Assembly: GCA_002685815.1 (NCBI GenBank)
Contig: NYYM01000036.1
Span: forward strand, 1 to 16,792
From: Dehalococcoidales bacterium
Lineage (GTDB): Bacteria; Chloroflexota; Dehalococcoidia; Dehalococcoidales; UBA2162
Reading direction: 5' to 3'
Length of the DNA stretch: 16,792 nt
In this document: positions 1 to 14,003 of the stretch, piece by piece
Numbering within the stretch: position 1 is the first letter of the stretch
How the letters are laid out: every line of letters starts with the position of its first letter
Program-made: the position numbers and the translations under genes
Notes under the pieces: generated by a model
Databases searched by the model: none
The model's input: the letters and a program-made list of their open reading frames with translations, nothing else
Told to the model about the DNA's origin: nothing

Positions 1-146
1 CCAGGTTTTACCTGAGCGGGTTGCCCCATTCGGGAATCCTCGGTTAGGCTTGCTTGGCAGCTCACCGAGGCTTATCGTAGCCGCACTACGCCCTTCTTCG
101 GCCCTTGATGCCAAGGCATCCACCGTATGCCTTCACCCGCTTGACC
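1..146 (-). rRNA. rrl: 23S ribosomal RNA, 5' end (partial)
   Basis: Read on the minus strand, this stretch begins with GGTCAAGC and continues into the conserved 5' domain of bacterial 23S rRNA, including ACGGTGGATGCC, GGCGTAGTGCGGCTACGATAAG-like bases and CGAATGGGG. The mature 5' end is placed near position 146 by analogy with the E. coli start GGTTAAGC. The gene continues beyond position 1, so only about 146 nt are present. No 16S gene or tRNA lies upstream, and a promoter sits about 190 nt before the mature end, so the gene appears to be transcribed without 16S. Confidence 0.95.
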
Positions 147-205
147 TGCTTCAGATTTGATATTAGATAGATACATACTAGATTTTCGATGCGGTTACTC
201 GTATT

Positions 206-220
206 CAATTGTTAAGGTGC
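206..220 (-). promoter_or_regulatory. boxA-like antitermination element in the 23S leader
   Basis: The minus strand reads GCACCTTAACAATTG about 60 nt before the mature 23S end. It closely resembles the Nus-factor boxA of bacterial rRNA leaders (E. coli TGCTCTTTAACA). Its place just after a terminator-like hairpin fits an rRNA antitermination leader. The match is by eye. Confidence 0.6.
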
Positions 221-228
221 TTGACACA

Positions 229-262
229 AAAGAAAGCGGCTTGGCGATAACTCACCAAGCCG
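229..262 (-). terminator. Terminator-like hairpin in the 23S leader (possible boxB analogue)
   Basis: On the minus strand the arms CGGCTTGG (255-262) and CCAAGCCG (237-244) form a perfect 8-bp stem with a 10-nt loop, followed by CTTTCTTTTG. This has the shape of an intrinsic terminator, yet it lies between the 23S promoter and the 23S gene. It could be a processing or boxB-like element, or an attenuator that the adjoining boxA machinery overrides. Confidence 0.5.
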
Positions 263-341
263 TCTGCCTGGCCATTAACTACCGAGATCTTTCTCTATGT
301 ATCAACCTTGAGCATAAACAATAACTCCTGTTCCGAGAGGA

Positions 342-371
342 ACTATAGCATATGTTTTGGCTTTTTGTCAA
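342..371 (-). promoter_or_regulatory. Promoter of the 23S rRNA transcript
   Basis: On the minus strand there is a perfect -35 TTGACA (366-371), an 18-nt spacer and a -10 TATAGT (342-347). Initiation is expected near 335. A short dyad GTTCC-N4-GGAAC (330-343) overlaps the -10 box and start point and could be an operator, though it may be chance. Nothing coding is seen between 372 and 476. Confidence 0.8.
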
Positions 372-476
372 GACTATTTTCACCCCCGTTCTGCCGGGAA
401 TTACTGGTTTGGTTAGCACCACCATCTGGAACTAAAATCAGGCTGCGCCCACAAAATCAGTAGTCGCTTCGCTGGC

Positions 477-1943
477 CTATTGCGACACTTCAGCCGACGG
501 TGTCGCCTCGCCAGGTGGTGTTGACGAAGCTTGCAGCTTCCGACGGAAGAAATAGTAAATAATCAAACCCACCGCCATCCACACAATTCCCACCCAGCGG
601 CTGTAAGGTTGGGTCATCAGGATTATGACCCAAATAACAGCGGTGGAGACCAAACCGATGATAGAGCTTATTGGCAACTCGTATCCCCTGGTCTTCAGAT
701 TCCAGCGCAGCTTGAAAGGCCGGTGCATATCCGGCTGTCTGATTCTCAGACTGAGGATGGAGGCATGGGCAAACATGAAGGCGAGCAGCGCTCCGAAAGC
801 GTACAGCGCCCCCATACTCTCAAAAACATCGGTGGTGAAGAAGCCGGGTAGCAAGAGAACTATGGCTATTACGCTGAAGAGTATTATTGAAACATAGGGA
901 GTCTTAAAGCGGTGGTGCACCCGACCGAGAATAGCCGGTTGCAGCCGGTTACTTCCCATTGAGAAGGCCAACCGCGAAATGCCCATGATTCCGGAGTTGG
1001 TGGCTATCAGCAGGATCGTACCGGCCAATATGGCGATCAGAGGCTTGAGGACGTCTCGCAATATGGCCAGGGGCAGGTTGGCGGCAATACCGGCCACCGG
1101 GTCCCGGGACCATTCAGAAGCAAGTTGCTGGGGGGTCATCGCCGATAGGGATACCAGTGAAATGCCGGCGAATAGCACCAGCACAGTGATGATCATCAGG
1201 ATTAACGCCTGGGGTACTCTTTTTTCCGGTTGCTTGGTCTCTTCAGCCATCTGAGACATCGTCTCTATACCGGTGTAAGCAATGGTAGCCAGAGCAATGC
1301 CCAGAATGAGGTTCTCGGCGGTTGGCCAGTTATCAGTGATTCTATTCCAGACCAACGCAGGGCTAAAGATGAGGATGAAGCCGATGACCACCAGGGAAAC
1401 CTGAGTGACGATATCCAGTATGGCAGCCCCGATATTTATTATTGAGGTTTCTTTAACGCCGACTACGTTGACCACCATCAGCAGCAGGACAATGGCCATG
1501 GAGGTTACCGTGCCGGCGGCCGGAGAAGCCTTAAACGGTTCCCAGAAGAAACCCAGGTAAGGAGGAATTGTGTAGGCAGAGATTGAGATAGTAACTATAT
1601 AGCTGAGCATCAGTGCCCAGCCAGCCGTGAAGCCCATAGCATTGTTGAAACCGTATCTGGCAAAACTGGCCGAACCCCCCGCTTCCGGCAGCATGGCAGT
1701 ACCCTCGGCGTAGGTCAGGGCGGTAAAGATAAAGAGAATACCGGCCACTCCCAGCGCTATCGGAGTGGCCCCCATAGCCACCAGAGCGACGATGCCCAGG
1801 GCGTAATAAATAGAGGAGCCGACATTCCCGTACCCGGCGCTGAATAAAGCCGGGACTCCCAAGACACGTCTCAAGCGGAATCGCCTGATCCGACGTGGCC
1901 GGAAAATTCTGTCACCCGGTTTGGGTTGCCAACTATTCTGCAT
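477..1943 (-). CDS. APC-superfamily permease (amino acid or cation transporter)
   Basis: This is a 488-residue polytopic membrane protein with about 12 hydrophobic segments and the expected length of an amino acid-polyamine-organocation permease. A basic N-terminal tail (residues 16-26, mostly Arg) precedes TM1, which carries the glycine-rich substrate loop GYGNVGSSIYYALG near residues 37-50, the APC signature region. TM3 and TM6-like segments follow in the usual order, including IAYTGIETMSQMAEE near residue 220, typical of the family. The substrate cannot be read from sequence. The ATG at 1943 is preceded by GGTAAGAG and lies only about 10 nt after the predicted transcription start, so the leader is very short. 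It is divergent from a universal stress protein and two RCK/TrkA regulators, which suggests nucleotide-controlled transport, possibly cation-coupled. Amino acid uptake is the default call. Confidence 0.85.
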   Translation of the reverse strand: MQNSWQPKPGDRIFRPRRIRRFRLRRVLGVPALFSAGYGNVGSSIYYALGIVALVAMGATPIALGVAGILFIFTALTYAEGTAMLPEAGGSASFARYGFNNAMGFTAGWALMLSYIVTISISAYTIPPYLGFFWEPFKASPAAGTVTSMAIVLLLMVVNVVGVKETSIINIGAAILDIVTQVSLVVIGFILIFSPALVWNRITDNWPTAENLILGIALATIAYTGIETMSQMAEETKQPEKRVPQALILMIITVLVLFAGISLVSLSAMTPQQLASEWSRDPVAGIAANLPLAILRDVLKPLIAILAGTILLIATNSGIMGISRLAFSMGSNRLQPAILGRVHHRFKTPYVSIILFSVIAIVLLLPGFFTTDVFESMGALYAFGALLAFMFAHASILSLRIRQPDMHRPFKLRWNLKTRGYELPISSIIGLVSTAVIWVIILMTQPYSRWVGIVWMAVGLIIYYFFRRKLQASSTPPGEATPSAEVSQ

Positions 1944-1959
1944 CTCTTACCATCAGGGG

Positions 1960-1988
1960 ATTTTACTCCCTTGTTTGGTGGCTGTCAA
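1960..1988 (-). promoter_or_regulatory. Promoter of the APC permease
   Basis: On the minus strand a perfect TTGACA (1983-1988) is separated by 17 nt from TAAAAT (1960-1965). Initiation would fall near 1953, about 10 nt before the ATG. Confidence 0.75.
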
Positions 1989-2007
1989 AGTTTTCTCGCC
2001 AAAGGTA

Positions 2008-2036
2008 TTGTGGATTTATCACAAGAGGACTATAAT
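2008..2036 (+). promoter_or_regulatory. Promoter of the USP-trkA genes
   Basis: TTGTGG (2008-2013), a 17-nt spacer and a consensus TATAAT (2031-2036) lie 35 nt before the ATG at 2071. It is back to back with the permease promoter, with 19 nt between the two -35 boxes, so a single regulator could act on both. Confidence 0.7.
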
Positions 2037-2070
2037 ACCTTTTGTTTATCAAGAATTGAGACAGGAAACT

Positions 2071-2496
2071 ATGGATTTCAGCAAGATTCTGGTACCGGTC
2101 GTCGGCACCGAAGCCGACGACGAAGCGATAAGGCTGGCCTGCCAGTTGACCAAGAAGGCTAAGGGCAAGATTTGGGCTGTCTATGTGGTCACCCTCAAGC
2201 GCAGCCTGCCCTTGGATGCAGAAGTAGAGCCTGAAATCAAGAAGGCTGAAGACATACTGGACCGGGCCGAGATTGTCGCCGAGGAGTTGGACCACGAACT
2301 GGAGACTGAACTCCTTCAAGCAAGAGAGGCCGGACCGAGTATCGTTGATGAAGCTGTGGAACATGAGGTTGACCTTATTCTGATGGGAATTGAGTACAAG
2401 AAGCGCTTCGGCCAGTTTAGTCTGGGCAGTGTCGTGCCTTATGTGCTGAAGAACGCCCCTTGTCGCGTGATACTTTACTCTCAATACGCTGGCTAA
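2071..2496 (+). CDS. Universal stress protein (UspA family)
   Basis: A 141-residue single-domain USP fold protein begins MDFSKILVPVVGTEADDEAI, the usual first strand and helix, and ends with the beta strand APCRVILYS. The ATP-binding signature G-2X-G-9X-G-S is present in altered form near residues 106-120: G106 and G119-S120 are in place but Tyr replaces the middle Gly at 109, so nucleotide binding is uncertain. The reading frame is open upstream to 1921, but the ATG at 2071 is chosen because GACAGGAAACT gives a ribosome site and the predicted transcript starts near 2042. It is followed by two RCK/TrkA genes and is divergent from an APC permease; USP domains are known to occur fused to or beside such transporters. 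Confidence 0.85.
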   Translation: MDFSKILVPVVGTEADDEAIRLACQLTKKAKGKIWAVYVVTLKRSLPLDAEVEPEIKKAEDILDRAEIVAEELDHELETELLQAREAGPSIVDEAVEHEVDLILMGIEYKKRFGQFSLGSVVPYVLKNAPCRVILYSQYAG

Positions 2497-2509
2497 ATGA
2501 GGTTGTTCA

Positions 2510-2923
2510 ATGAAAGTAGTTATTATGGGATGTTCGCGAGTAGGTGCCTGGTTGGCCAGACTGCTTGATGCTGAAGGGCATCAGGTTACCGTCCTTGACA
2601 ATGACTCGTGGAGTTTTCGGAGGCTTAGTTTTCCGGGACTCCTAGCCGATTTCCAGGGCACCGCACTGGTAGGTAATGGCACTGACCAGGAAGCCCTGAA
2701 AAGAGCGGGAATAGAGAAGGCCGACGTCTTCTTCGCTCTCACTCAGGGAGACAATCGTAATGTCATGGCAACTCAGATCGCCAAGCACATTTTTAATGTG
2801 CCAAGAGTAATCTGTCGTATCTATGACCCCCTGCGCCAGGAGCTATACTGCACTCTGGGGGTGGAGGCTATCAGCCCGACTGCAGTGTTTGCTCAAATGC
2901 TGAAGAAAAAACTGGAGAGCTAA
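2510..2923 (+). CDS. TrkA N-terminal (RCK_N) domain protein, single domain
   Basis: This 137-residue protein is a lone Rossmann-type RCK_N domain. It starts MKVVIMGCSRVGAWLA, with a nucleotide loop GxSxxG where Ser9 replaces the usual second Gly, then beta2 ending in VTVLDND with Asp at the position that contacts the ribose of NAD. The motif VGNGTDQEALKRAGIEKAD and the later FALTQGDNRN follow the TrkA pattern. The RCK_C domain is absent; the protein stops soon after the Rossmann fold. It begins 13 nt after the USP gene and ends 9 nt before a full-length TrkA, so these three are probably one operon. It may pair with the next gene product in a mixed gating ring, which is an inference. Confidence 0.85.
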   Translation: MKVVIMGCSRVGAWLARLLDAEGHQVTVLDNDSWSFRRLSFPGLLADFQGTALVGNGTDQEALKRAGIEKADVFFALTQGDNRNVMATQIAKHIFNVPRVICRIYDPLRQELYCTLGVEAISPTAVFAQMLKKKLES

Positions 2924-2932
2924 GGTGGAAAA

Positions 2933-3595
2933 ATGTATATCATAGTTGTTGGAGGTGGCAGGGTGGGTTACTATTTGACCCGGGCCCTGCTGGACGAGGG
3001 CCACGAAGTACTCGTAGTGGAAAAGGAAGAATCTACCTGCGAAGGCATTAACGAAGAACTGGGTAGCATCTGTTTCCGTGGTGACGGCTGTGAGGCGGCT
3101 ACTTTGGCTGAAATAGGCACCGAGCGCGCCGATATGCTGATTGCTGTAACCGGACACGATGAAGATAATCTGGTCGCCTGCCAGGTAGGCAAGCATAAGT
3201 TTAATGTGCCCCGCACCATTGCCCGTATCAGGAATCCTCAGAACGAAACTCTCTTCAAGAAACTCGGCATTGACGTTACCATAAGCAGCACCAACGTTAT
3301 CCTTGAACACATAGAAACAGAACTGCCGACTCACCCCCTGACCCACTTGCTGGCCATCGAGGAGGGTGGACAGGAAATCGTTGAGATAAAAATCCCCCCC
3401 GAAGCGACGACCATAGGCAAGTCACAAAGAGAACTCTCCCTCCCACGGGGCAGTAAATTAGCCCTGGTTATTCGAGAAGGTGGCAAGAACAGTGTCCCCA
3501 CCCTCAACACCACCCTCCGGGCAGGGGACCGGATAATAGCCGTTACCACCCATGATTCGGAAGAAGAGTTGCGGTCTACCCTCAGGGGCGTATAG
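2933..3595 (+). CDS. trkA: TrkA-family regulatory subunit (RCK_N + RCK_C)
   Basis: A 220-residue protein with the full TrkA layout. RCK_N occupies about residues 1-130, with intact GGGRVG at 7-12 and an acidic residue at the end of beta2 (VVEKE) suited to NAD(H). RCK_C covers about 135-220, containing TIGKSQRELSLPRGSKLALV and ending GDRIIAVTT. Such proteins gate Trk/Ktr potassium channels by binding nucleotides. The ATG at 2933 is preceded by AAGGTGGAAAA, a good ribosome site. No trkH or ktrB pore gene is in the window; the only transporter next to it is the divergent APC permease. The partner may lie elsewhere in the genome. Confidence 0.88.
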   Translation: MYIIVVGGGRVGYYLTRALLDEGHEVLVVEKEESTCEGINEELGSICFRGDGCEAATLAEIGTERADMLIAVTGHDEDNLVACQVGKHKFNVPRTIARIRNPQNETLFKKLGIDVTISSTNVILEHIETELPTHPLTHLLAIEEGGQEIVEIKIPPEATTIGKSQRELSLPRGSKLALVIREGGKNSVPTLNTTLRAGDRIIAVTTHDSEEELRSTLRGV

Positions 3596-3656
3596 GACAA
3601 CTCCGTTCTCGGGCAATTATTCAATCGGTTGAACTTCGACAGCCCTCTCTTACGTG

Positions 3657-3685
3657 TTGACGCAATTGCGTAATTACGCTATCAT
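3657..3685 (+). promoter_or_regulatory. parA promoter with overlapping palindromic operators
   Basis: A -35 TTGACG (3657-3662) and -10 TATCAT (3680-3685) are exactly 17 nt apart. The spacer is filled by two perfect palindromes that share GCG: CGCAATTGCG (3661-3670) and GCGTAATTACGC (3668-3679). A repressor bound here would block RNA polymerase, as expected for autoregulation by a small partition protein. The site could also be the centromere. Initiation is expected near 3692, before the ATG at 3707. Confidence 0.7.
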
Positions 3686-3706
3686 GGTCAGTGAAAGGGC
3701 TGGTTC

Positions 3707-4492
3707 ATGTCTGTTATCTGTATTGCCAATCAGAAAGGTGGAGTCGGAAAGACAACTACGACGGTCGCCCTCGCGGAAGGTCTGAGTGAGCACGGAAAAC
3801 GAGTTCTGCTCCTTGATTGGGACCCGCAAGCCAGCCTTACTATCAGTATGGGCTTTAACCCCGACACCTTGAAGGGCACCGGTTACGATGTTCTGGCCGG
3901 CAAGATCAGGAATGAAACAACCCCCGCCATCGGTGACGTGATCGTCCGGACGAAAAACCCGAACATTGATCTTGTACCGGCTAGTATTGAATTGTCCCAA
4001 GCCCAGCTTGACCTGGTGGAGGCGTCTACCAGGGAGCTGGTGCTGCGAGCAATGATTGAGCCGGTTCGTGCCTCCTACGACTTTATCCTGGTGGATTGTC
4101 TACCCAGCCTCGGTCTCCTCACTATCAATGCTCTGTCAGCATCGGATAGCGTACTGGTACCTTTGCAGGCTGACTTCCTGGCTATGAAAGGCCTGGCTCT
4201 TCTTTTGGATACCGTTATTCGGGTGAAAGATAAGATCAACCCGGATCTGAAGATTTCCGGCATACTGTTTACCATGACCGACCCCCGCACCCTGCATTGT
4301 AAAGAGGTCATAGACGTCACCAAGAGGGCCTTTGGTGACAAGATAAGAGTCTTCGAGGCGCGTATTCCGGTCACGGTTCGTTTTAAAGAAGCTCCGGCGG
4401 CCGGACAGTCAATCCTGACTTACGCTTCCCGCTCCAACGGGGCCGGTGCCTACCGATTACTTACGAAAGAGGTGATGAATGAAAAGAGTTAG
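3707..4492 (+). CDS. parA: ParA-family partition ATPase
   Basis: A 261-residue cytoplasmic ATPase with the deviant Walker A motif KGGVGKTT (residues 10-17, signature Lys10), Walker A' LLLDWDPQAS with Asp37 and Asp39, and Walker B ending at Asp130 in FILVDCLPSLG. No N-terminal helix-turn-helix precedes Walker A, which fits type Ib (short) ParA and Soj-like proteins. These ATPases bind DNA non-specifically as ATP dimers and position plasmids, chromosomes or protein cargo. The gene overlaps the next small gene by 14 nt, so the two are translationally linked. No replication initiator, ParB of the large type, or plasmid gene is nearby, so this may be a domesticated plasmid-like cassette or an orphan positioning system. 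Confidence 0.9.
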   Translation: MSVICIANQKGGVGKTTTTVALAEGLSEHGKRVLLLDWDPQASLTISMGFNPDTLKGTGYDVLAGKIRNETTPAIGDVIVRTKNPNIDLVPASIELSQAQLDLVEASTRELVLRAMIEPVRASYDFILVDCLPSLGLLTINALSASDSVLVPLQADFLAMKGLALLLDTVIRVKDKINPDLKISGILFTMTDPRTLHCKEVIDVTKRAFGDKIRVFEARIPVTVRFKEAPAAGQSILTYASRSNGAGAYRLLTKEVMNEKS

Positions 4493-4814
4493 CGTTACCG
4501 AGGAAAATGCTTATGGGACAGCCCTGGATCGCCTCACCGGCAGCGATAATACGGCCCGGACAGGCCTTGAAAATCCGATGAGGGAGCAACCTCCGACTTC
4601 TGTGAAAAAGCTATCCGTGTTCTTGAACCGTCAGGAAGACGCCTATCTGGAAACCCTGGGTTCAATGGCCAAGTTTAGTGGCGGTAAGAAACTCAGCAAG
4701 ACCAGGCTCATTGAAACCATGGTCCGGGCTTTCAGCACCACGGAACTGGACGTCCGGGGGGTCAATACCAGTGAAGAACTCTTCCAGAGGCTTACTGCGC
4801 AATTACGTAAATGA
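4479..4814 (+). CDS. Small ParA partner, ribbon-helix-helix-like DNA-binding protein (putative)
   Basis: This 111-residue protein starts inside the last codons of parA with the ribosome site AAGAGGTG ahead of it. Residues 1-40 are polar and probably disordered. From about residue 41 the pattern KKLSVFLN (a strand) followed by two helices with the turn GGKKLSKTRLIE resembles a ribbon-helix-helix fold, as in ParG-type partners of short ParA proteins. In ParG the flexible tail stimulates the ATPase; by position the Arg residues in this tail could do the same. The predicted DNA target is the palindrome pair in the parA promoter. Fold assignment is from pattern only and the sequence is not a strong match to any family I know by eye. 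Confidence 0.6.
   Translation: MKRVSVTEENAYGTALDRLTGSDNTARTGLENPMREQPPTSVKKLSVFLNRQEDAYLETLGSMAKFSGGKKLSKTRLIETMVRAFSTTELDVRGVNTSEELFQRLTAQLRK
4797..4810 (-). repeat. Inverted, diverged copy of the parA operator palindrome
   Basis: The minus strand reads TTACGTAATTGCGC. It differs at two of 14 positions from TTGCGTAATTACGC at 3666-3679 on the plus strand. It lies at the very end of the small partner gene, so the two-gene cassette is bracketed by inverted copies. It also encodes the last residues of the protein, so chance cannot be excluded. Confidence 0.4.
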
Positions 4815-4887
4815 GCAGCCATCAAAAGTCAGGCCCGGATTGAGTGTCGCACCGCCACACTAAGTAGCCGGCACCGGGGAGTTTTCT

Positions 4888-5568
4888 ATGGTAACGGACA
4901 AACCCAACAGGTTCTGGACACTGGTTGCAATCTTCCTGGCAGCCATGATATTCAGTGGTGGTGCCGTCATCTGGTTCAGATACAGCCCCGACCAACCCCT
5001 AGAAATCTCCCTCCCCCGAATTCAGAAATGGCAAAGCATGGTTCACATCAGCGGTGATATCAACAACCCCGGTTTCTATCCAGTAGTTGGCGGCGATACC
5101 ATTGACGCCCTCATTCAGACTGCCGGCGGCACCGTCGCCGGTGCCAACCTAAGTGGACTTGAACTTCATATTTCCGGAACAGGCCGGGACCAGCCAGCAC
5201 AAAGGATTGATCTCAATCGGGCCGAGGTTTGGTTACTTGAGGCTTTGCCCGGTGTTGGCGAAACTCTGGCCCAACGCATTGTCGACTATCGCCGCCAGAA
5301 CGGTCTCTTCCGCAACACCAATGAACTGCTCAAGGTAGCCCATCACGGCTCGGCCACCTCCACCACCGCTGATTTCCTGGCCGTGGTCAACCCCCGGCTG
5401 GCTGTTATCTCGGTGGGCGAGGATAATTCCTTCGGCCATCCTGATATTGAGGTGATGACCAGGCTTGAAGAGAGACTGGGCCGGGAGAATATCTACCGCA
5501 CCGATGAGCAGGGAACGATAGAGTTCATAACCGATGGTGAAAGGCTATGGGTCAGGGATGGAAACTAA
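4888..5568 (+). pseudogene. ComEA-ComEC chimera: N-terminal ComEA joined in frame to the C-terminal tail of ComEC
   Basis: The 226-residue frame has two recognisable halves. Residues 1-146 look like ComEA, the DNA receptor of natural transformation: a membrane anchor (about 10-30), an SLBB-like segment with HISGDINNPGFYPV (about 53-66), and a helix-hairpin-helix with LNRAEVWLLEALPGVGETLA followed by FRNTNELLKV. Residues 147-226 are the end of the ComEC metallo-beta-lactamase domain: LKVAHHGSATST, then AVISVGEDNSFGHP and a closing GERLWV. The join falls on LLKV, a tetrad found in both parents, so a deletion through short homology is the simple explanation. Missing are the second ComEA hairpin, the whole ComEC membrane channel and its HxHxDH metal site. 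The start has GGGGAG before the ATG. Stable expression is possible but DNA uptake by this product is not expected. A metagenome misjoin is the alternative. Confidence 0.75.
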
Positions 5569-5679
5569 TCCGAACAGGATGAGGTCTCAGGTTGCTGGGG
5601 ATTTTCGGGATTTGCACCCCGTGTACCTCCCGGCATTGAATAATACAAACGGACAAGAAGCCGTCATCGAGAGAATCAA

Positions 5680-6183
5680 TTGAAAGATCGCATTGAAGCC
5701 TACCTGGACATAGAAACTACCGGATTGTCACCAAACGTTTGTGAAATAACTGTCGTCGGTATTCACCTGTGTAACGGTGATAATACTGACTTCATTCATG
5801 TCGTGGGTGATAACATCTCTTCTGAGGCCATTCTTGAAGCTCTAGCTGATGTTGAAGTCATTTATACCTACAACGGAAGCAGATTTGACCTGCCCTTTAT
5901 CCATTTCAAACTTGGTGTTAATCTTGCCGAGATTTTCGGACACCATGACCTAATGTACGATTGCTGGAAAAGAAACCTGTATGGTGGATTGAAAGCTGTT
6001 GAAAGACAACTGGGGGTAGAACGGAAACTGACCGAAGTGAACGGCTATGAAGCTGTCCGGCTGTGGTGGAGATATATCAATGATTATGCCGAAGATGCTT
6101 TGGCAACATTGCTTGAATACAATAAAGAGGACGTCGTAAACCTGAAGATATTGAAGGATAGGCTATTGTCAGAGAGGAAATAG
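5680..6183 (+). CDS. YprB-like RNase H-fold / DEDD exonuclease-family protein
   Basis: A 167-residue protein with the three exonuclease motifs of the DEDD group in the compact YprB-type domain: ExoI DIETTGLS (Asp10, Glu12), ExoII TYNGSRFDLPFI (Asp70), and ExoIII EYNKEDVVNL (Tyr147, Asp151). An additional HHDLMYD (around Asp94) is typical of the YprB family, whose members act as or are predicted to be 3'-5' nucleases on DNA or RNA. The start codon is TTG at 5680 with GAGAG a few bases upstream; no in-frame ATG would keep the ExoI motif. The 111-nt gap before it shows no terminator. Length matches a stand-alone catalytic domain without the TPR region seen in longer relatives. Confidence 0.82.
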   Translation: MKDRIEAYLDIETTGLSPNVCEITVVGIHLCNGDNTDFIHVVGDNISSEAILEALADVEVIYTYNGSRFDLPFIHFKLGVNLAEIFGHHDLMYDCWKRNLYGGLKAVERQLGVERKLTEVNGYEAVRLWWRYINDYAEDALATLLEYNKEDVVNLKILKDRLLSERK

Positions 6184-6209
6184 GACGAGCGTATGGTTAT
6201 TCAGATATT

Positions 6210-6235
6210 TGGGATAATACTATGGGATAATACTA
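6210..6235 (+). repeat. Perfect 13-bp tandem duplication
   Basis: TGGGATAATACTA occurs twice head to tail (6210-6222 and 6223-6235), just ahead of a small membrane protein gene. Each copy contains GATAAT, one base from a consensus -10 box, so the duplication may double a promoter element. No clear -35 is seen. Confidence 0.7.
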
Positions 6236-6250
6236 GCTGTAGTAATAGCA

Positions 6251-6472
6251 GTGGGAATAATAATGGCACTCAGAGCGCGACGGGGGAAGAATGATTACCG
6301 CCCCTTTATTAGATTGGGAATCGCCGTTATCGTGGCCAGTCTTGTTTTGATGATTATTAGCCTGCTATTACAGATAATATTCGTCATAGGTATCCTTATT
6401 CTTATCCTGAGCCTGATATATCTGACAATTGGACTGGTTAGCAGAACCAGGTTGCAAAGTAATGGACGGTAA
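6251..6472 (+). CDS. Small two-helix membrane protein, unknown function
   Basis: A frame of 73 codons from GTG at 6251 (or 69 from ATG at 6263) encodes a basic N-terminus (RARRGKNDYRPF) followed by two hydrophobic helices, roughly residues 20-38 and 40-63, and a short basic tail. No family motif is recognised. Neither start has a strong ribosome site, so the true start is uncertain; the ATG begins MALRARRG. The positive charges before the first helix suggest the N-terminus stays in the cytoplasm, and the pair of helices would form a hairpin with both ends inside. Confidence 0.5.
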   Translation: MGIIMALRARRGKNDYRPFIRLGIAVIVASLVLMIISLLLQIIFVIGILILILSLIYLTIGLVSRTRLQSNGR

Positions 6473-6591
6473 ATACCTCTAGTTGCTTAGCTTGTCGGCA
6501 ATTGACAAATCCCGACCCGAGGGCTAGACTCAGACCTGAATATACCTGACCACCTCCTCATTCATAGTGGAGAGAGAAAGATTGAACAAAA

Positions 6592-6638
6592 GGCACTGGG
6601 AGCGCTGATTGAAAGGGCGGTAACTGGTGCCCTTTTTT
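6592..6638 (+). terminator. Intrinsic terminator with an alternative hairpin (T-box-like remnant?)
   Basis: AAGGGC (6613-6618) pairs with GCCCTT (6629-6634) across a 10-nt loop and runs into six T residues, a sound rho-independent terminator. A competing stem can form between GGCAC (6592-6596) and GTGCC (6627-6631). The run AAGGGCGGTAAC also resembles the T-box element AGGGTGGNACC, but no aminoacyl-tRNA synthetase follows and no full T-box leader is evident. The rest of 6473-6674 shows nothing else recognisable. Confidence 0.65.
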
Positions 6639-6674
6639 GCTGATTAACGGTGAAATTAATAGTAGAGTGAAGAA

Positions 6675-7028
6675 ATGCGGAAGTGGTTGCGCAGAACTGG
6701 ATTAGTTACAGGTTCTTTGTCGGTAGGTTTACTCTCGTCACTGGCTGCCATGCCATTCCTGGTGGGCACTTATTCGGGTTCGGTTTCTGAGGAACCATCT
6801 CTGAGTTTCGGGATGGCAGTTGTGGTTCCGGGACTAACTATTGCTGTTAGTCTGGCCATCGCCTGGAAGTGGGAGCTTGTTGGCGGGAGTCTGCTTGTTT
6901 TGGATAGCCTCGTCTGGTTATTAGTTGCTTGGGCATTCTTTTACGTACCTCTCCAGTTTTGCTTGCCCCTCTTGGCTTCAGGGATTCTTTTTCTTGTTTC
7001 ATGGAGAATTGGAGGAGGATACTTCTAG
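6675..7028 (+). CDS. Hypothetical membrane protein (about four helices)
   Basis: A 117-residue protein that is almost entirely hydrophobic. It opens with a basic MRKWLRR, then predicted helices near residues 10-30, 44-64, 67-87 and 93-112. It has no signal cleavage site or catalytic motif I can name. The ATG at 6675 is preceded by a purine-rich AGTAGAGTGAAGAA. It follows an intrinsic terminator and is separated from the next gene by 123 nt, so it is probably a single-gene unit. Several short membrane families share this look; I do not assign one. Confidence 0.55.
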   Translation: MRKWLRRTGLVTGSLSVGLLSSLAAMPFLVGTYSGSVSEEPSLSFGMAVVVPGLTIAVSLAIAWKWELVGGSLLVLDSLVWLLVAWAFFYVPLQFCLPLLASGILFLVSWRIGGGYF

Positions 7029-7151
7029 GGAATAACCACTCCGCAATAGAATGGACTTTCACCCACCGCTGGAGTGAACTCCGATCATGAGATGAGACAT
7101 AGCAATATGTTAAAATGGAGAAAATAACAGGGCAAAAGGGAGGTATCCGTC

Positions 7152-8036
7152 TTGGACGTGCAGGTTGAAGAGTTTGACAGCGCAATAAGGCAGATTGTGC
7201 CTGAGAAAGCAACGCTGGAGCAGATTGGCGCTGGTTTCGGCTTTACCGAAGGTCCTCTCTGGCGCGGAGGTCATCTCCTTTTCAGTGATATACCCCGCAG
7301 CCGTATCGTTAAGCTGCGTACGCTCGGTGAGGGACCGGAGGTCACCACCTTTCGCAGCCCCAGCGGGAACTCAAACGGTCTGACACTGGACATGAGCGGA
7401 CGCCTAATCGCTTGCGAGCACGGTACGCGGCGGGTAACTCGCACCGAGGTGGATGGCTCTGTCGCGGCCCTGGCCGAACGATATCAGGGACACCGGCTCA
7501 ACAGCCCCAATGATGTAGTGGTCAGGTCTGACGGCAGCGTCTACTTCACCGACCCGTCTTTTGGACTAGGGACTCCCCCAAAATGGAAAGAACTGCCCTT
7601 CAACGGCGTGTTTCGTGTCGCTCCTGATGGCGAGTTGGTGCTGCTGGTGGACGATTTTGACCTGCCTAACGGGCTGGCTTTCTCTCCGGACGAGACCGTG
7701 CTCTATATCAATGATACCGCCAAGGGCCACATCCGTGCCTTTGATGTTAGCGAGGACGGCAGTATCAGCAACGGTCGGGTGCTCGTTGAGTTGAAAGGGG
7801 CAGAAGGGGGCAGACCGGACGGCATGAAAGTTGACGTGGAAGGCAACGTCTACTGCACTGGCCCCGGCGGATTCTGGATTACCCAGCCGGATGGTAAAAG
7901 CCTGGGCCGGGTAATGATGCAGGAGCTTCCGGCCAATCTCGCCTGGGGTGATCCGGACCGTCAAACGCTCTATTTTACCGCCCGCACCGGCATCTACCGC
8001 ATGAGATTATCAATTCCCGGAATAGTGGTACCCTAG
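7152..8036 (+). CDS. SMP-30/gluconolactonase/LRE-family lactonase
   Basis: A 294-residue six-bladed beta-propeller protein of the SMP-30/gluconolactonase family, which hydrolyses sugar lactones or related esters using one divalent metal. The metal ligands of the family are visible: Glu33 in FTEGPLW, Asn173 in DLPNGLAFSPDE and Asp223 in RPDG, with the substrate-side Asn120-Asp121 in NSPNDVVV. Repeats of the D-G and YFTD type mark the blades. The start is TTG at 7152, supported by GGGAGG seven bases upstream. No signal peptide is seen, so it should be cytoplasmic. The pol IV gene starts 20 nt after its stop, so they may share a transcript. The real substrate is not predictable. Confidence 0.88.
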   Translation: MDVQVEEFDSAIRQIVPEKATLEQIGAGFGFTEGPLWRGGHLLFSDIPRSRIVKLRTLGEGPEVTTFRSPSGNSNGLTLDMSGRLIACEHGTRRVTRTEVDGSVAALAERYQGHRLNSPNDVVVRSDGSVYFTDPSFGLGTPPKWKELPFNGVFRVAPDGELVLLVDDFDLPNGLAFSPDETVLYINDTAKGHIRAFDVSEDGSISNGRVLVELKGAEGGRPDGMKVDVEGNVYCTGPGGFWITQPDGKSLGRVMMQELPANLAWGDPDRQTLYFTARTGIYRMRLSIPGIVVP

Positions 8037-8055
8037 GCAGGCTCAGGGTAAGAGT

Positions 8056-9279
8056 ATGGCAGATACAAGCATAATACATATCGACCTTGACGCTTTCTTC
8101 GTCTCGGTGGAGCAGGTGTTCAACCCCGAACTCAAAGGTAAGCCGGTGGTAGTCGGCGGTAAGCCGGGGGGGCGGGGAGTAGTTGCCGCCGCTTCCTATG
8201 AGGCCAGGGCATTTGGTCTCCACTCGGCCATGCCCCTGAAAACAGCCAGCCGTCTCTGTCCCCATGCTATCTTCATCGAGGGCAGCTTTCCCCGATACCG
8301 TGAGGCCTCAAAAAAGTTTATGGCTATCCTGGCTGATTTTACCCCTTTTCTTGAGCCGGGCGGTCTTGATGAAGCTTATCTGGATGTAACCGGTTTTGAG
8401 TCTCTCCACGATTCTATTCACCGGATGGCGGTAAGTATCAGGCAACGGATACAGGACGAATTGGGCCTTTGCGCCTCTGTGGGTATTGCCAGCGGTAAAA
8501 TAATAGCTAAAGTTGCTTCTGAGCTCTCCAAGCCGGACGGCTTGATCGAAGTAGCCAGAGGAGAGGAGCAGGCATTTCTGGCCCCGCTCGGGGTGGGCAA
8601 ACTTCCCGGGGTCGGCAAAAAGGCTGAACGGACACTGGAACTGTTGGGCATAGATACAATAGGCAAACTCTCTGTCACTCCGGTTGCCGTCCTTAAAAGG
8701 CATCTGGGTGTCTCTGGTGAGGGTCTGCATCGCTCGGCCAATGGCATTGATGATAGAAAAGTGGAGACGTCCGGTGCTGCCAAGTCCATCAGCCGGGAAA
8801 CTACTTTTGGCAAAGACACCAGAAACCGCGTTTACTTGAAGGCAACGCTGCGTTATCTTGGTGAGAGGGTGGGGGCTGACCTCCGCCGCCAGGGCAAGCA
8901 GGCAAAGAGCATCAACCTGAAGCTGAGATATGCCGATTTTACCACCCTCACTCGCAGCCATACCCCGCCCCAGGCCACCGACGGCGACCTGATGATTTTC
9001 CAGACCGGACTAAAATTACTGGACAAAGCGCTGGCTGCGGAAAAGCAGCCGGTACGCCTCATCGGTATCGGGGTATCAAATCTGGTCGAGGCAGGGGGGC
9101 AACTGGCCATGCTGGACTCATCGGCCCAGAGACAGGTACAACTAAATAAGACCATTGATCGCATCCGCCAGAAATACGGCTTCACCTCCATCCAGACCGG
9201 CCAGACCCTACTTCTCAAGGACCTGTATTCCGAAAAGAACAAGGACTATAATCTCCACACGCCCAGTCTGTCGAGGTAG
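8056..9279 (+). CDS. dinB: DNA polymerase IV (Y-family translesion polymerase)
   Basis: A 407-residue Y-family polymerase. Near the N-terminus IDLDAFFVSVEQ gives the first metal Asp10 and the steric-gate Phe15; the second catalytic pair is Asp105-Glu106 in LDEAYLDVTG. The thumb has KLPGVGKKAERTLELLGI (helix-hairpin-helix), and the little-finger domain fills the last 120 residues. The C-terminal stretch GQTLLLKDLY could be a clamp-binding peptide. Unusually, the bases before the catalytic pair read PGG rather than the usual PLS, replacing the conserved Ser with Gly103. The ATG at 8056 has only a weak site (GGGTAAGAG), consistent with read-through from the upstream lactonase. No LexA-type box (GAAC-N4-GTTC) lies before it. 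Confidence 0.93.
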   Translation: MADTSIIHIDLDAFFVSVEQVFNPELKGKPVVVGGKPGGRGVVAAASYEARAFGLHSAMPLKTASRLCPHAIFIEGSFPRYREASKKFMAILADFTPFLEPGGLDEAYLDVTGFESLHDSIHRMAVSIRQRIQDELGLCASVGIASGKIIAKVASELSKPDGLIEVARGEEQAFLAPLGVGKLPGVGKKAERTLELLGIDTIGKLSVTPVAVLKRHLGVSGEGLHRSANGIDDRKVETSGAAKSISRETTFGKDTRNRVYLKATLRYLGERVGADLRRQGKQAKSINLKLRYADFTTLTRSHTPPQATDGDLMIFQTGLKLLDKALAAEKQPVRLIGIGVSNLVEAGGQLAMLDSSAQRQVQLNKTIDRIRQKYGFTSIQTGQTLLLKDLYSEKNKDYNLHTPSLSR

Positions 9280-9283
9280 GGAC

Positions 9284-10384
9284 TTACCGCTTTCCTTCAG
9301 AATCTGGTCTATCGGAAAGAAAGGGGGGAGGTGCGTCATCGGGGCGGTCAAAAGTGAGGTGCCGCACGGGGTAGTTTATGGTTATCCCCTCCTGGTCGAA
9401 GCGGGCTTTGAGACGCTTGATCAGCTCACTCTTCACCCGGAAAGAAGCGATTCTGTCCTTCGCCTGCAGCCAGACCCAGAAGTTAATGTTGGAATCGGCG
9501 AATTCGTCAAAACCAAACCAGGGCTCGAAAGTCTTTATTGCTTCGTCAAGATCGTCAATCACCTCTTGAGCCACTTCTATGGCTATTCTCTCGACCTGGG
9601 CCAGGTCGCTGCTGTAGCTGACGCCCCCGCTGACAATTACTCCCATATCCATTGACGGACCATAGTAGTTGGTAATGACACTGTCAGCCAGGCGGGAGTT
9701 GGGCACGATAACCATATTGTTGAAAGAGGTACGAATCCGGGTGCTGCGCCAGCCTATGTTGGTGACATAGCCTCTCACGGCGCCATCGTCCAGTTCGATG
9801 TAATCCCCCTCCCTCACCACGTGGTCGACCACAATTTGGGTACCGGCAAAAAAGTTGCTCAAAGTCGGTTGCAGGGCCAGGGCGATCGCCAGACCGCCAA
9901 TTCCCAGGCCAGCTATCAGAGGGCTGACAGATATTCCCAGGTAGTCCAGCAGCACCAGCAGGCCGACAATGTAGGCCAGAATTACAACAAATCTTTGGGC
10001 AAGACGGTTAAGGCTCCGGCGAACCCTTACCCGTTGCAGGTACCAGGACAGTAGCACCTGTCCGATGCGAGCGATAGCGTATGTGACCAGGGCAATTATT
10101 CCGGCAATGGCCGCCTTCCCCAGAACTCCCATCCAGAGTTCCAGGTAGGAAAGAGAGCTCAGGGCCAGCAGAAGCCCCTCGAATACCACCAGAAGGAAAA
10201 GGGGTCTGGACAAACTCTGCAGCAACTGGGGTAGCAAAGCCGTTCTCTTATTCCCCGCTACCTTCCGCCGGACCAGCCGTGACACAAGCAGGACAAGCCA
10301 TGCAACCAGGACCGAACTTACCAGTATTCCGGCCGCCCAGGCCACCTCAAGCAAAAGAGAACCGGTAACGAATTCTGGCCGCAT
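9284..10384 (-). CDS. MscS-family mechanosensitive channel
   Basis: A 366-residue protein with about five hydrophobic segments (near residues 12-36, 60-80, 88-110, 128-150 and 155-180), the last being the Gly/Ala-rich pore helix with AGLGIGGLAIALALQPTLSN, typical of MscS TM3. The beta domain follows (REGDYIELDDGAVRGYVTNI and NNMVIVPNSRLA), then the alpha/beta domain and a Pro- and charge-rich tail. These channels release solutes on hypo-osmotic shock. It is longer than E. coli MscS by about 80 residues because of two extra N-terminal helices. The ATG at 10384 is preceded by GGGGG nine bases away. Its stop lies four nt from the dinB stop, tail to tail, leaving no room for a separate terminator. 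Confidence 0.9.
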   Translation of the reverse strand: MRPEFVTGSLLLEVAWAAGILVSSVLVAWLVLLVSRLVRRKVAGNKRTALLPQLLQSLSRPLFLLVVFEGLLLALSSLSYLELWMGVLGKAAIAGIIALVTYAIARIGQVLLSWYLQRVRVRRSLNRLAQRFVVILAYIVGLLVLLDYLGISVSPLIAGLGIGGLAIALALQPTLSNFFAGTQIVVDHVVREGDYIELDDGAVRGYVTNIGWRSTRIRTSFNNMVIVPNSRLADSVITNYYGPSMDMGVIVSGGVSYSSDLAQVERIAIEVAQEVIDDLDEAIKTFEPWFGFDEFADSNINFWVWLQAKDRIASFRVKSELIKRLKARFDQEGITINYPVRHLTFDRPDDAPPPFLSDRPDSEGKR

Positions 10385-10407
10385 TATTATCTACCCCCGT
10401 AATCAAT

Positions 10408-10436
10408 AATCTAAGCAGTCTGACTAGTTTTGTCAA
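10408..10436 (-). promoter_or_regulatory. Promoter of the MscS-type channel gene
   Basis: On the minus strand TTGACA (10431-10436) and TAGATT (10408-10413) are 17 nt apart. Initiation near 10401 gives a leader of about 17 nt with the GGGGG ribosome site. Confidence 0.7.
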
Positions 10437-10455
10437 ACTTCCTGCCTTAAACCAT

Positions 10456-10485
10456 TTGTTTTCTGCCCGGATAATTATGTATAAT
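10456..10485 (+). promoter_or_regulatory. Promoter of the branched-chain aminotransferase gene
   Basis: TTGTTT (10456-10461), an 18-nt spacer and consensus TATAAT (10480-10485). The -10 box overlaps an in-frame ATG at 10484, so that ATG would not be on the transcript; this decides the start in favour of 10517. Confidence 0.65.
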
Positions 10486-10516
10486 GAGCACTAACCGAGA
10501 GAGGAGACAGCAAAAG

Positions 10517-11428
10517 ATGCCATCGTTTGCCTTTTACAAAAACGAGTTTGTTCCCTTGTCTGAAGCCAACATGTCGGTGATGACTAATTTCATTCACTAC
10601 GGTACAGGCGTATTTGAGGGCATCAGGGGTAATTGGAATGCCGAAAACAAGAGGAGCTACCTGTTCTGTCTAAAAGAACACTATGAGCGGTTGCATCAGG
10701 GATGCCAGGTACTCAAGATGGAGCTTCCTTACAGTGTCGACGAAATGTGCCGCATAACCGTCGAACTGGTTGAAAAGTGCGGCTTTGAGGAAAATGTCTA
10801 TATCCGCCCCCTGGCTTACAAAAGTGCCGAGGCCCTGGGTGTCCGGCTCCATGACCTGGAGTGTGATTTCACGGTCTTTGCCTTTCCCTGGGGGCCCTAC
10901 CTGCCGGATAAAGTAAGGTGCTGTGTTTCATCCTGGCGCTTCCCGAATGGAATACCCCGGGCCAAGCTCACCGGGCTCTACGTCACCAACGCCCTGGCCA
11001 AGACGGACGCAATCGAGACCGGCTTCGATGAAGCGATTATGCTTACTTCGGACGGCTATGTCGCCGAAGGCAGCGGAGAAAATATCTTTCTGGTGATTAA
11101 TGGTGAACTGGTAACTCCGGCCAGCTATGACGGGATCTTGATGGGAATTACCCGTAATAAGGTGATGGAATTGGCCGAAGCCGAACTGGGTATTAAGACC
11201 GTGGAGAGGCATGTTGACCGCGTCGAGCTTTATAACGTTAGCGAGTGCTTCCTCACCGGAACTGCGGCCAACATAACCCCGGTATCCGAGATTGACAATC
11301 GCAGGATAGGTGACGGTGAAATCGGCCAGATAACCGAGAAACTGCAGAATATTTATTCCGACGTAATTCGGGGCAACAACCCGAAGTATCTGAACTGGTG
11401 CACGCCAGCTAAACGAAAGGGCCGTTAG
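10517..11428 (+). CDS. ilvE: Branched-chain amino acid aminotransferase (class IV PLP enzyme)
   Basis: A fold-type IV PLP aminotransferase of 303 residues that interconverts Val, Leu, Ile and their 2-oxo acids. Visible landmarks are the early FIHYGTGVFEGIRG (about 25-38), Arg58 in HYERLH for the phosphate, the PLP lysine Lys150 in PRAKLTGLYVTNALAK, and Glu184 in GYVAEGSGENIF. The usual GNY after the lysine is GLY here. The start at 10517 is preferred over ATG 10484 because GAGGAG lies about ten bases before it and the 10484 codon falls within the -10 box. The end bears a basic tail AKRKGR. D-amino acid transaminase and aminodeoxychorismate lyase share the fold, but length and motifs favour IlvE. 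Confidence 0.87.
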   Translation: MPSFAFYKNEFVPLSEANMSVMTNFIHYGTGVFEGIRGNWNAENKRSYLFCLKEHYERLHQGCQVLKMELPYSVDEMCRITVELVEKCGFEENVYIRPLAYKSAEALGVRLHDLECDFTVFAFPWGPYLPDKVRCCVSSWRFPNGIPRAKLTGLYVTNALAKTDAIETGFDEAIMLTSDGYVAEGSGENIFLVINGELVTPASYDGILMGITRNKVMELAEAELGIKTVERHVDRVELYNVSECFLTGTAANITPVSEIDNRRIGDGEIGQITEKLQNIYSDVIRGNNPKYLNWCTPAKRKGR

Positions 11429-11439
11429 CGGAAGCGTTG

Positions 11440-11944
11440 GTGACGGGGGTTGTGAACGGACTTATCGCCGTAATTGTCGCTTAGCTGCTTGGCTCCATTC
11501 CCGCTGCATACATCATTACTCGGCTAAGAACGGGCAAAGACATCCGTCAGTTGGGTGGGGGTAATGTAGGCACCTTCAATGTCTTTCGGGAGGTCGGTTC
11601 CGAGGCGGCTATTCTTACTGCTGTTGTTGATATCGGTAAAGGGGCCGCCGCTGTTTTCATAACTAGCTGGCTGTTTAACTTTCCTCCGATGCACGCGATA
11701 GGTGTCCCCCAACTCTTTGTGTTGGCAGCCGTGACCGGGCATATCTGGTATCTCTACCTGAAATTCAGTGGCGGTAACGGCCTGATTTCTGGAAGAATCG
11801 TGGCTTTTCGGTGTCTTCTTCGTTATCCTGGGACTAATACTGGTGTTTAACTTCCTACCCACTGCCAGAGCCGCCCTGGCTGCGGCCGGAAGTGGAAATA
11901 ACCTCTTGACCGAACTCTTGCACCGGGACAAAGTCAAGAAATAG
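11440..11944 (+). pseudogene. plsY-like glycerol-3-phosphate acyltransferase, disrupted
   Basis: From a GTG at 11440 the frame gives TGVVNGLIAVIVA, a TAG stop at 11482-11484, and then LLGSIPAAYIITRL, GKDIRQLGGGNVGTFNVFREVG, DIGKGAAAV and GHIWYLYLKFSGGNG. These follow the order of PlsY motifs (GSIPxxY; SGNxGxxNxxR; GHxxPxxxxFxGGKG). The final motif has Asn in place of the Lys of GGKG. Shortly after 11785 the reading shifts by one base: the frame ESWLFGVFFVILGLILVFN then carries the last membrane helix and tail to a TAG at 11942-11944. So there is at least one nonsense codon and one frameshift, and the total is about 30 residues shorter than usual PlsY. PlsY makes lysophosphatidic acid from acyl-phosphate; an intact copy is presumably elsewhere. 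Confidence 0.8.
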
Positions 11945-11957
11945 ACAGACGGGTTAG

Positions 11958-12599
11958 CTAGGCTACCTGCCTGATGACACCGATGACCTTGCCCTGGATC
12001 TCGACATTGTCCGGCTCAACAAATATCGGTTTCATCTGGCTATTGGACGGCTGAAGCCGGATGCGCTTTGGTTCACGATAGACCTTTTTCAAGGTGACCT
12101 CTTTTTCGGCTTTGAGCCATACGGCCGCCATCTCCCCATTCTCCACCACGTTCACAGACTGCATCAGGACGATATCACCATCATTAATCAAGGAATCTAC
12201 CATTGACAGACCCTTCACTCTGAGGGCGAAAACCCCTTCCCTGCCCCGGGTCAGTTCTTCGGTTACCTCCAGTATCTCTGAGGAATCAGTTACGTCCCAG
12301 GTGTCGGGAGTAGGCACCGGTATGGGTTCACCGGCAGCTATCTGACCAATAACGGACACCTTCACGGTGCGTCCCCTGGCAGGAAATTGATCGACCAACT
12401 CGATACCGCGGGAAATCCCCGGATGACGGCGAATATAGCCCTCCCGTTCAAGTATGGCCAGGTTATAGTCAACCACCGAAGTCGAGCTAATCCCGCAACC
12501 GCTTACTATGTCCCTGACGGTGGGGGGGTAGCTCCTGTCCAGCCAGAACCGGTTGACAAAATCAATAATATGCCGCTGCCTGGATGAGAGCGTTTTCAC
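11958..12599 (-). CDS. lexA: LexA SOS repressor
   Basis: A 213-residue LexA. An N-terminal winged helix (residues 1-70, SSRQRHIIDFV, YPPTVRDI, GISSTSVVDYNLAIL) binds DNA; the self-cleavage site is Ala89-Gly90 in IGQIAAGEPI; the catalytic dyad is Ser132 in VKGLSMVDSL and Lys171 in EVTLKKVY. All key residues are intact, so RecA-stimulated autocleavage should work. The start is GTG at 12599 (AGGA six bases upstream). Its promoter carries GAAC-N4-GTTC boxes over the -10, so it is autoregulated. The stop is 13 nt from the end of the plsY pseudogene on the opposite strand. Confidence 0.96.
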   Translation of the reverse strand: MKTLSSRQRHIIDFVNRFWLDRSYPPTVRDIVSGCGISSTSVVDYNLAILEREGYIRRHPGISRGIELVDQFPARGRTVKVSVIGQIAAGEPIPVPTPDTWDVTDSSEILEVTEELTRGREGVFALRVKGLSMVDSLINDGDIVLMQSVNVVENGEMAAVWLKAEKEVTLKKVYREPKRIRLQPSNSQMKPIFVEPDNVEIQGKVIGVIRQVA

Positions 12600-12631
12600 C
12601 TTTGTCCTCGTAAAGTACTCATATTTGTACC

Positions 12632-12678
12632 GAACATCTGTTCTATAGAACTATATTACTAATTCGGCAATTTGTCAA
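12632..12678 (-). promoter_or_regulatory. lexA promoter with overlapping SOS boxes
   Basis: On the minus strand TTGACA (12673-12678) and TATAGT (12650-12655) are 17 nt apart. Two overlapping Gram-positive-type boxes, GAAC-ATCT-GTTC (12632-12643) and GTTC-TATA-GAAC (12640-12651), share the central GTTC and cover the predicted start point and part of the -10 box. Binding by LexA would block initiation. The first box is extended by flanking C (CGAAC), as in strong sites. Confidence 0.8.
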
Positions 12679-12881
12679 GAGTCAAAGCGGCTTTATAGGT
12701 CGTTTGCTTCCTGCTATGTCAATCCGGTTCTTGCCTCGGAGAGAGTGTTTGTAACACATGAGCCCTTTTGGTCGTAATACTTAGTAGTTTGGTACTTTCA
12801 TCCCGGTGGCTGGAACCTATACTATCTAATCAAGCAGCAGGTACAGCAGTTGGCAACAAGAAAGGAAGATAAGATCGAAAA

Positions 12882-13139
12882 ATGATTGTAGAATTCAGTA
12901 TGATCAAAATGCACTCGCAGGCAGGGCATGACATATTTCAAAACGTAGAGCTTCCCTGGCCGATTGCCGACATTATACTTCAGCATCATGAGAGACTGGA
13001 CGGTTCCGGATATCCCCGAGGATTGGCCTGCAAGGACATCCTGTTATCGGCCAGGATCATCACCGTCGCCGATGTGATAGAGGCGATGGCTTCTCATCGG
13101 CCGTACAGACCCGCTTTGGGTATTGACAAAGCCCTGGAA
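12882..13139 (+). pseudogene. HD-GYP domain fragment
   Basis: From ATG 12882 the frame gives FSMIKMHSQAGHDIFQNVE, PWPIADIILQHHERLDGSGYPR, then SARIITVADVIEAMASHRPYRP, the central and distal part of an HD-GYP cyclic-di-GMP phosphodiesterase. The diagnostic HHxxxDGxGYP (residues 35-45) is intact. Upstream, the HD metal motif (HDIGK-like) is missing and no trace of it is visible in 12656-12881. Downstream, the family resemblance stops near residue 86, before the usual NRGxxYDP. About 70 residues are lost at the front and some 30 at the end. The frame stays open into the following SnoaL-like protein, so the fragment may be translated as a fused leader, but a separate ribosome site serves that gene. 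Confidence 0.7.
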
Positions 13140-13178
13140 TTCAGTATCGTTCAATGTAAAATAGGAATGGAGGAAACG

Positions 13179-13586
13179 ATGTCAGAAGAAAACAAGGCTG
13201 TCGTCAGGAAGTATTACGAGTTGCTGGATAAGGGAGATATGGAAGGCATGATGGGGCTCTTCTCGGATACCATTGCCTGGCGTTTCACCGGGATGGGGGA
13301 ACTCGATAAAAAAGGTCTGGAGGGGCTCATTCAGGGATTCGGGGGTGCCTTCCCTGACATGTGCCATACCATTGATTTGGTGGTGGCAGAGGGAGACGTG
13401 GTAGCTACCTCGCTTACGTTCGCCGGCACTCACAACGGGGAGTTAATGGGCATCCCTCCCAGCGGCAAGAAAGTGGAGGTCCGTGGCATGAATATGTATC
13501 GCATCGCCGGGGGTAAGATTGTGGATGCGGAGACTGTCGTTGACATGATGGCCCTGATGCAGCAGATTGGCGCTATCCCTTCCTAA
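13179..13586 (+). CDS. SnoaL-like / ester-cyclase-type NTF2-fold protein
   Basis: A 135-residue NTF2-like fold protein. It begins MSEENKAVVRKYYELLDKGD, the typical first helix, continues to DTIAWRFTG, then GGAFPDMCHTIDLVVAEGDVV and ends with MNMYRIAGGKIVDAETVVD. The pattern VAEGDVVATSLTFAGTHNGELMGIPPSGKKVEVRG is characteristic of the SnoaL-like polyketide cyclase and ester cyclase group (PF07366). Substrate unknown. The start is ATG 13179 with GGAGGAAACG just before it, though the frame is open to 12882 through the HD-GYP fragment. No terminator is evident after its stop. Confidence 0.8.
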   Translation: MSEENKAVVRKYYELLDKGDMEGMMGLFSDTIAWRFTGMGELDKKGLEGLIQGFGGAFPDMCHTIDLVVAEGDVVATSLTFAGTHNGELMGIPPSGKKVEVRGMNMYRIAGGKIVDAETVVDMMALMQQIGAIPS

Positions 13587-13969: not shown

Positions 13970-14003
13970 ACAGTCCGATAGGCTCACCTGAGAGGAGCGG
14001 CCG

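Follow-up and report, generated by a model that had tools for sequence, protein, structure and literature searches.

What does a single open reading frame represent that starts as one competence gene and ends as another: a new protein, or the remains of two genes? The question is raised by a frame in the genome of a Dehalococcoidales bacterium, located in a stretch of 16,792 nucleotides (the window, bases 1-16792 of the 22,865-base contig C36). The genome (G000 below) comprises 1.30 Mb in 96 contigs and is 72% complete. Most likely the hybrid of comEA and comEC found here is a real in-frame deletion scar, with its join as given by the assembly, which marks a recurrent and ordinary loss of natural transformation and not a new protein.

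Domain composition of the hybrid frame

The hybrid frame (4888-5568, forward strand) runs from an ATG, preceded by GGGGAG, over 226 amino acids without internal stops, in a window without any N (the contig has its first at position 16793). Profile searches assign residues 1 to ~145 to ComEA and the remaining ~80 to the C-terminal end of the ComEC metallo-beta-lactamase (MBL) domain. The comEA part (4888..5322, forward strand) comprises the membrane anchor, the SLBB domain and the first helix-hairpin-helix (HhH), as recognized with Pfam and NCBIfam, and shares 48-59% identity with the longer comEA matches of relatives, with which the anchor aligns. The SLBB domain is matched at residues 51-90 (Pfam, 4e-6; 27.1 bits against a cut-off of 27), and both HHH_3 (Pfam, 8e-16) and the comEA model (NCBIfam, 1e-9) at residues 104-157. 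The HHH_3 match is over its cut-off, yet the paired hairpins ending in GIG are missing: the KVxGIGxxTYExIK of relatives has given way to KVAHHGSATST.

The comEC part (5323..5568, forward strand) starts at LKVAHHGS and runs to the stop codon, covering the final ~80 codons of the MBL domain. Positions 598-663 of the 663 in the NCBIfam ComEC_Rec2 model (TIGR00361) align to hybrid residues 143-209 (3e-12), and the part is 58-84% identical to the main comEC ends found in relatives. The competence channel domain (PF03772, Pfam) has no match within the 226-aa frame. ComEA (TIGR01259, TIGR00426) and ComEC/Rec2 (TIGR00361) are the source families of the two halves, neither of which is complete. The scores of the whole protein are far under the curated cut-offs (38 vs 152 bits for TIGR01259, 45.5 vs 190 bits for TIGR00361), as is expected because the frame consists of two fragments. 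A chance origin of the two-part match is excluded, since both matches are strong and the neighbouring genes are shared with relatives (UspA, TrkA and TrkA upstream; DinB downstream). An earlier note on this DNA, made from the letters alone, had described an in-frame ComEA-ComEC chimera; the profiles of both databases and the split matches in relatives (see below) bear this out.

Two further frames of the window look broken or fused. At 12882-13586 an HD-domain remnant (PF13487 positions 74-156 of 170) runs in frame into a SnoaL-like gene, and at 11551-11850 a glycerol-3-phosphate acyltransferase fragment (PF02660 positions 27-92 of 164) apparently represents a broken gene.

The locus in related genomes

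A search of 61 genomes with the hybrid sequence gave matches in 53 (G000 included), and in 43 of these at two or more places. Typically, residues 1 to ~160 match a comEA frame of ~170-200 aa, and residues ~145-223 all or part of a ~800-aa comEC frame. PF03772 is present in 40 of the 61 genomes, and in 107 of the 156 genomes that make up our sample of the order.

An intact comEA/comEC pair, the presumed ancestral state, is found at the same site in relatives. The order UspA, TrkA1, TrkA2, comEA, comEC is seen in seven of ten intact loci (G001, G004, G008, G016, G053, G060 and G033, the last with ~650 bp between TrkA2 and comEA). The G041 locus ends inside TrkA2 at a contig end, in G062 ~5 kb separate TrkA2 from comEA, and in G039 TrkA1 lies on a different contig. 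The window retains UspA-TrkA1-TrkA2 (a UspA-like and two TrkA-like genes, 1921..3595, forward strand), the 5' neighbours of comEA in most relatives examined, as well as a DinB-like gene (8056..9279, forward strand); the names UspA, TrkA and DinB are those that we presume for these neighbours. The DinB-like gene is located downstream of comEC in G001, G004, G008 and the comEC contig of G002 (C18), and downstream of the site of the lost comEC in G005 and G056. Between TrkA2 and comEA the window carries a ParA-like gene and a 111-aa ORF (3707..4814, forward strand) with no counterpart there in the relatives examined, and three extra ORFs precede DinB. The ParA-like gene and the 111-aa ORF recur as a pair in G028.

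From LKV codons to LKV codons, the ten relatives measure 2303, 2352, 2265, 2275, 2275, 2277, 2274, 2274, 2485 and 2286 bp, so that joining the separate genes at LKV removes 2265-2485 bp (n = 10). One deletion of 2.3-2.5 kb from separate comEA and comEC genes at this site is sufficient to produce the window, in agreement with the single deletion that the earlier note had expected relatives to reveal. The same note had listed the second hairpin, the ComEC channel and the MBL metal site as removed, and alignment with relatives and with the ComEC of G004 places all three in the deleted part. The second HhH hairpin of ComEA is gone from the hybrid. In the ComEC of G004, THPDNDH (at ~605 by visual count) and LLTAD (707), which we take to be the MBL metal motifs HxxxDH and TGD/TAD, both come before the join position at 732, and the channel lies earlier still; neither motif is in the hybrid.

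The join and a putative short repeat

The join (CTGCTCAAGGT, 5326-5336, forward strand) is embedded in the window sequence GAACTGCTCAAGGTAGCCCATCACGGC. At the same place the comEA of G002 reads GAACTGCTCAAGGTGCCCGGC, which contains CTGCTCAAGGT. Among ten intact comEC genes, GTGCTCAAGGT precedes the AHH codons in five (G053, G060, G062, G039 and G041), and the other five are one base off TGCTCAAGGT. The word common to the comEA of G002 and the former five is TGCTCAAGGT, 10 nt in length. Read together, the comEA of G002 and the comEC of other genomes make it plausible that a direct repeat of this length existed at the LKV codons. As this word reads as LKV in comEA and comEC alike, the product is in frame.

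The exact identity that touches the first base of the LKV leucine codon is 0-4 nt in the ten intact pairs, with AAGGT slightly further on common to some. Shared 10-mers anywhere between comEA and comEC number 0-4 per genome against 1.1-1.2 expected, which is near chance; a repeat of 10 nt is nothing special, just a possible place for slippage. The earlier proposal of a deletion by short homology at LLKV holds for the deletion, as a single event at the LKV codons fits; the homology is reconstructed across genomes, and none of the ten intact comEA/comEC pairs compared has the 10-nt repeat in both genes at once.

Uptake genes in G000 and the joint loss of comEC and dprA

Does G000 hold an intact comEC elsewhere? 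The search that had been suggested to settle this covered the channel domain and the tail: PF03772 gave no match in G000 (10 of 14 controls positive; genome 72% complete), and the hybrid query detected no second ComEC tail elsewhere in this genome. The dprA gene of G000 is a remnant on contig C53 (locus L082, about 1500-1750) that covers profile positions 2-34 and 47-116, is cut at both ends and is followed by an open topA frame; an additional weak dprA match lies on C51. No match to PF00437 (pilus and secretion ATPases) was found in the 72% complete G000 with 14 of 14 controls positive. This family was matched in 57 of the 61 genomes, G000 being among the four without, and only G005 of the 11 other members of the G000 family is without a strong match. 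As the missing part of a genome that is 72% complete could hide both comEC and the pilus ATPase, their absence is supportive, not conclusive. The absent channel, the dprA remnant and the absent ATPase fit the loss of transformation put forward in the earlier note, and by its gene content G000 has probably lost natural transformation.

Across the order, dprA tends to go along with comEC when the latter is lost, as judged from gene presence in the genomes with a completeness of 90% or more and a contamination of 5% or less (n = 52, overlap tallied by hand). Here, dprA is present in 38 of 42 genomes with PF03772 vs 2 of 10 without (Fisher 2.5e-5, kinship uncorrected). In both exceptions (G098 and G050) a gap or contig end interrupts comEC, and leaving them out gives a Fisher value of 9e-7, equally uncorrected for kinship.

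Scars and losses in the order

In the order sample (156 genomes), the TrkA1 neighbour is present at E<=1e-38 in 125 genomes and dprA at E<=1e-10 in 111. TrkA1 is present without PF03772 in 26 of the 156, and the site was examined in all 26. In 11 of them, contig ends, N gaps or a locus scattered over several contigs precluded a judgement (G011, G022, G030, G064, G065, G074, G098, G099, G106, G149 and G155). Four of the 15 judged genomes (G000, G037, G112 and G028) have comEA joined to a comEC tail. In G037 the start of SLBB continues in frame into VYRTDTQGTIEF; the G112 scar links the anchor, likewise in frame, to NIYRTDRQGNIEF and decays directly after the join. The scar of G028, an HhH remnant with a stop, does not keep the frame; it has 100 N in its vicinity and sits upstream of UspA, not behind TrkA2. 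These three scars, found by examining the loci, are shorter than the hybrid of G000, and since the joins differ the four look like separate events. In frame at the join are three of the four, an outcome of ~1 in 9 by chance that is not significant.

Other remains are seen in G056, where the comEC tail alone is left behind TrkA2; in G100 (L131 4325-5517), where a complete comEA is directly followed by an MBL-only stretch of 240 codons with the channel missing; and in G103, where a frameshifted comEA and the first ~80 comEC residues lie near a contig end. In eight genomes (G005, G017, G026, G038, G040, G130, G134 and G135), neither comEA nor comEC was matched at E<=1e-3 in the stretch examined. 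Close relatives with the channel include seven in the G000 family, G113 in the G112 genus, G090 and G091 in the G056 genus, and G058 in the G028 family.

The same fused gene in relatives, kept under purifying selection, would according to the earlier note speak for a functional fusion. At E<=1e-50, a threshold at which shorter hybrids are missed, 13 of the 156 genomes match the hybrid and only G000, the one member of its genus in the sample, covers residues 1-226, so no other full hybrid was found, and what relatives have are the shorter, separate scars. A 430-aa frame in G098 was considered as a further comEA-comEC fusion and rejected, as a TAG ends comEA ahead of comEC, which then enters a 100-N gap. 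In G012, G020, G021, G027 and G048, comEC is seemingly split into a channel frame of ~500 aa and an MBL frame of ~300 aa.

Rates of evolution of the two halves

Because only one genome has the hybrid and synonymous sites were judged saturated at genus distance, purifying selection on the hybrid was assessed from protein branch lengths on a fixed tree of ten genomes, with the G000 branch taken as share of the tree (30 bootstraps, extremes dropped). This share is 0.204 (0.150-0.253) for the comEA half, 0.122 (0.090-0.164) for the TrkA genes and 0.111 (0.079-0.166) for the MBL tail. The comEA half is thus ~1.7x faster than its TrkA neighbours, with bootstrap ranges that overlap slightly, and the MBL tail shows no acceleration relative to the TrkA genes. 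On these branch lengths the comEA half looks relaxed and the tail does not, a mixed pattern that fits a young relic, with some constraint on the tail possible.

Copies of the comEC 3' end

Inserts that follow an intact comEC terminate in an incomplete copy of its 3' end in G060 (235 nt, 86%), G029 (121 nt, 93%) and G053 (49 nt, 82%); the inserts bounded distally by such a copy are located at L069 4961-9977, L070 6360-7929 and L067 4262-6818. The copy of G060 (L069 4961-5207) and the remnant of G056 (L127 1812-2064), come from different families. In both, the sequence begins at the LKV codons, with the 13 bases CGTATCAGTCTCC in front of them, possibly the end of an element or an attachment site. 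The 17-mer formed by CGTATCAGTCTCC and AAGG occurs exactly in only G060 and G056 among the 156 genomes. G003 contains a version that differs at one position, and the 4 kb examined around this site showed neither a comEA nor a comEC match. No recombinase was detected among the four ORFs of the G060 insert scanned by family profiles, two of which matched no family; for G029 and G053, the ORFs of the inserts were inspected by eye.

Origin of the hybrid

We hold with considerable confidence, on the comparison of loci, that an in-frame deletion of ~2.3-2.5 kb fused comEA to comEC and cost the genome the channel, leaving an inert frame; no other reading is nearly as simple as a deletion scar. A deletion between two LKV-coding stretches, one in each gene, would have joined comEA and comEC in phase, and probably arose by replication slippage or end-joining on the putative ~10-nt direct repeat. 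Having lost the channel of ComEC and the greater part of its MBL domain, the cell would no longer be transformable. What would remain is an anchored ComEA with half of an HhH domain and an MBL remnant devoid of the main metal motifs, most likely without function. The lack of any accumulated stop or frameshift in the hybrid frame and the unaccelerated MBL tail speak against a scar; the frame may still be open because the join is in phase and not very old.

The join could also have been made by chimerism during assembly or amplification, in a cell with intact comEA and comEC. Amplification chimeras show short homology at their joins, as is the case here, and scattered single Ns on other contigs (25 and 26, respectively, in 3.2-kb stretches of C53 and C51) indicate an imperfect assembly. 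We nevertheless regard such an artefact as unlikely: the shared word of ~10 nt is shorter than the k-mers that assemblers usually employ, the window is free of N, G000 has neither a channel domain match nor a second ComEC tail, and its dprA is broken as well. That selection maintains a functional fusion, in the form of a DNA-binding protein that is anchored in the membrane and has acquired a new C-terminal part, is very improbable, even with an open frame that has GGGGAG ahead of its ATG, a tail without acceleration and three of four scars in frame. Such a protein would have neither the second HhH hairpin nor the metal motifs, no relative has it at E<=1e-50, its comEA half is accelerated, and the comparable in-frame scar of G112 decays directly after the join.

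Least credible to us is a mobile element that recombined in the comEC 3' end and whose imprecise loss removed the genes. The fragments of G056 and of the second copy in G060, with the same start after 13 identical bases, and the three inserts that end in a comEC 3' copy are in line with this. However, the 17-mer is absent from G000 even at one mismatch, the scanned ORFs of the G060 insert revealed no recombinase, and a short repeat already explains the join in the window. More broadly, the comEC 3' end might be a recurrent recombination target in the order, where mobile or transformed DNA enters, leaves copies of the tail and repeatedly costs the channel, with the scars, that of the window included, as its footprints; we consider this a long shot. 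For the hybrid as a deletion scar, it follows from the domains left that the protein is probably inert, and the modest interest of the case lies in the recurrence of such scars, the event itself being ordinary.

Comparison with known systems

No report on comEC in Dehalococcoidia was found in the literature searched, nor, judged from titles and the opening lines of abstracts, a description of a comEA-comEC gene fusion of this kind. Natural transformation is hard to study in these uncultured bacteria, and scars at one conserved site make its losses countable. As several lineages lost comEC through different deletions and their relatives kept it, the frequency and cause of the loss become testable from genomes alone.

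The event is of a known kind, as interruption of comEC and loss of transformability are already reported, in outline, for other species. In Piscirickettsia salmonis, according to the summary of that work, transposable elements interrupt comEC, and comEA and dprA are intact (PMC12955456). As in that species, the gene for the channel is broken here and other uptake genes persist or leave traces; in contrast to it, the damage here stems from a deletion that joins comEA and comEC, and dprA is broken too. Frequent and mostly recent losses of transformability are summarized for Legionella pneumophila and Acinetobacter baumannii (PMC11472951), and the repeated loss of natural transformation is what the Dehalococcoidales have in common with them. 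Whereas that study, as outlined, concerns strains within species with transformation measured, the losses described here are spread over the genera of an uncultured order and are known from sequence alone.
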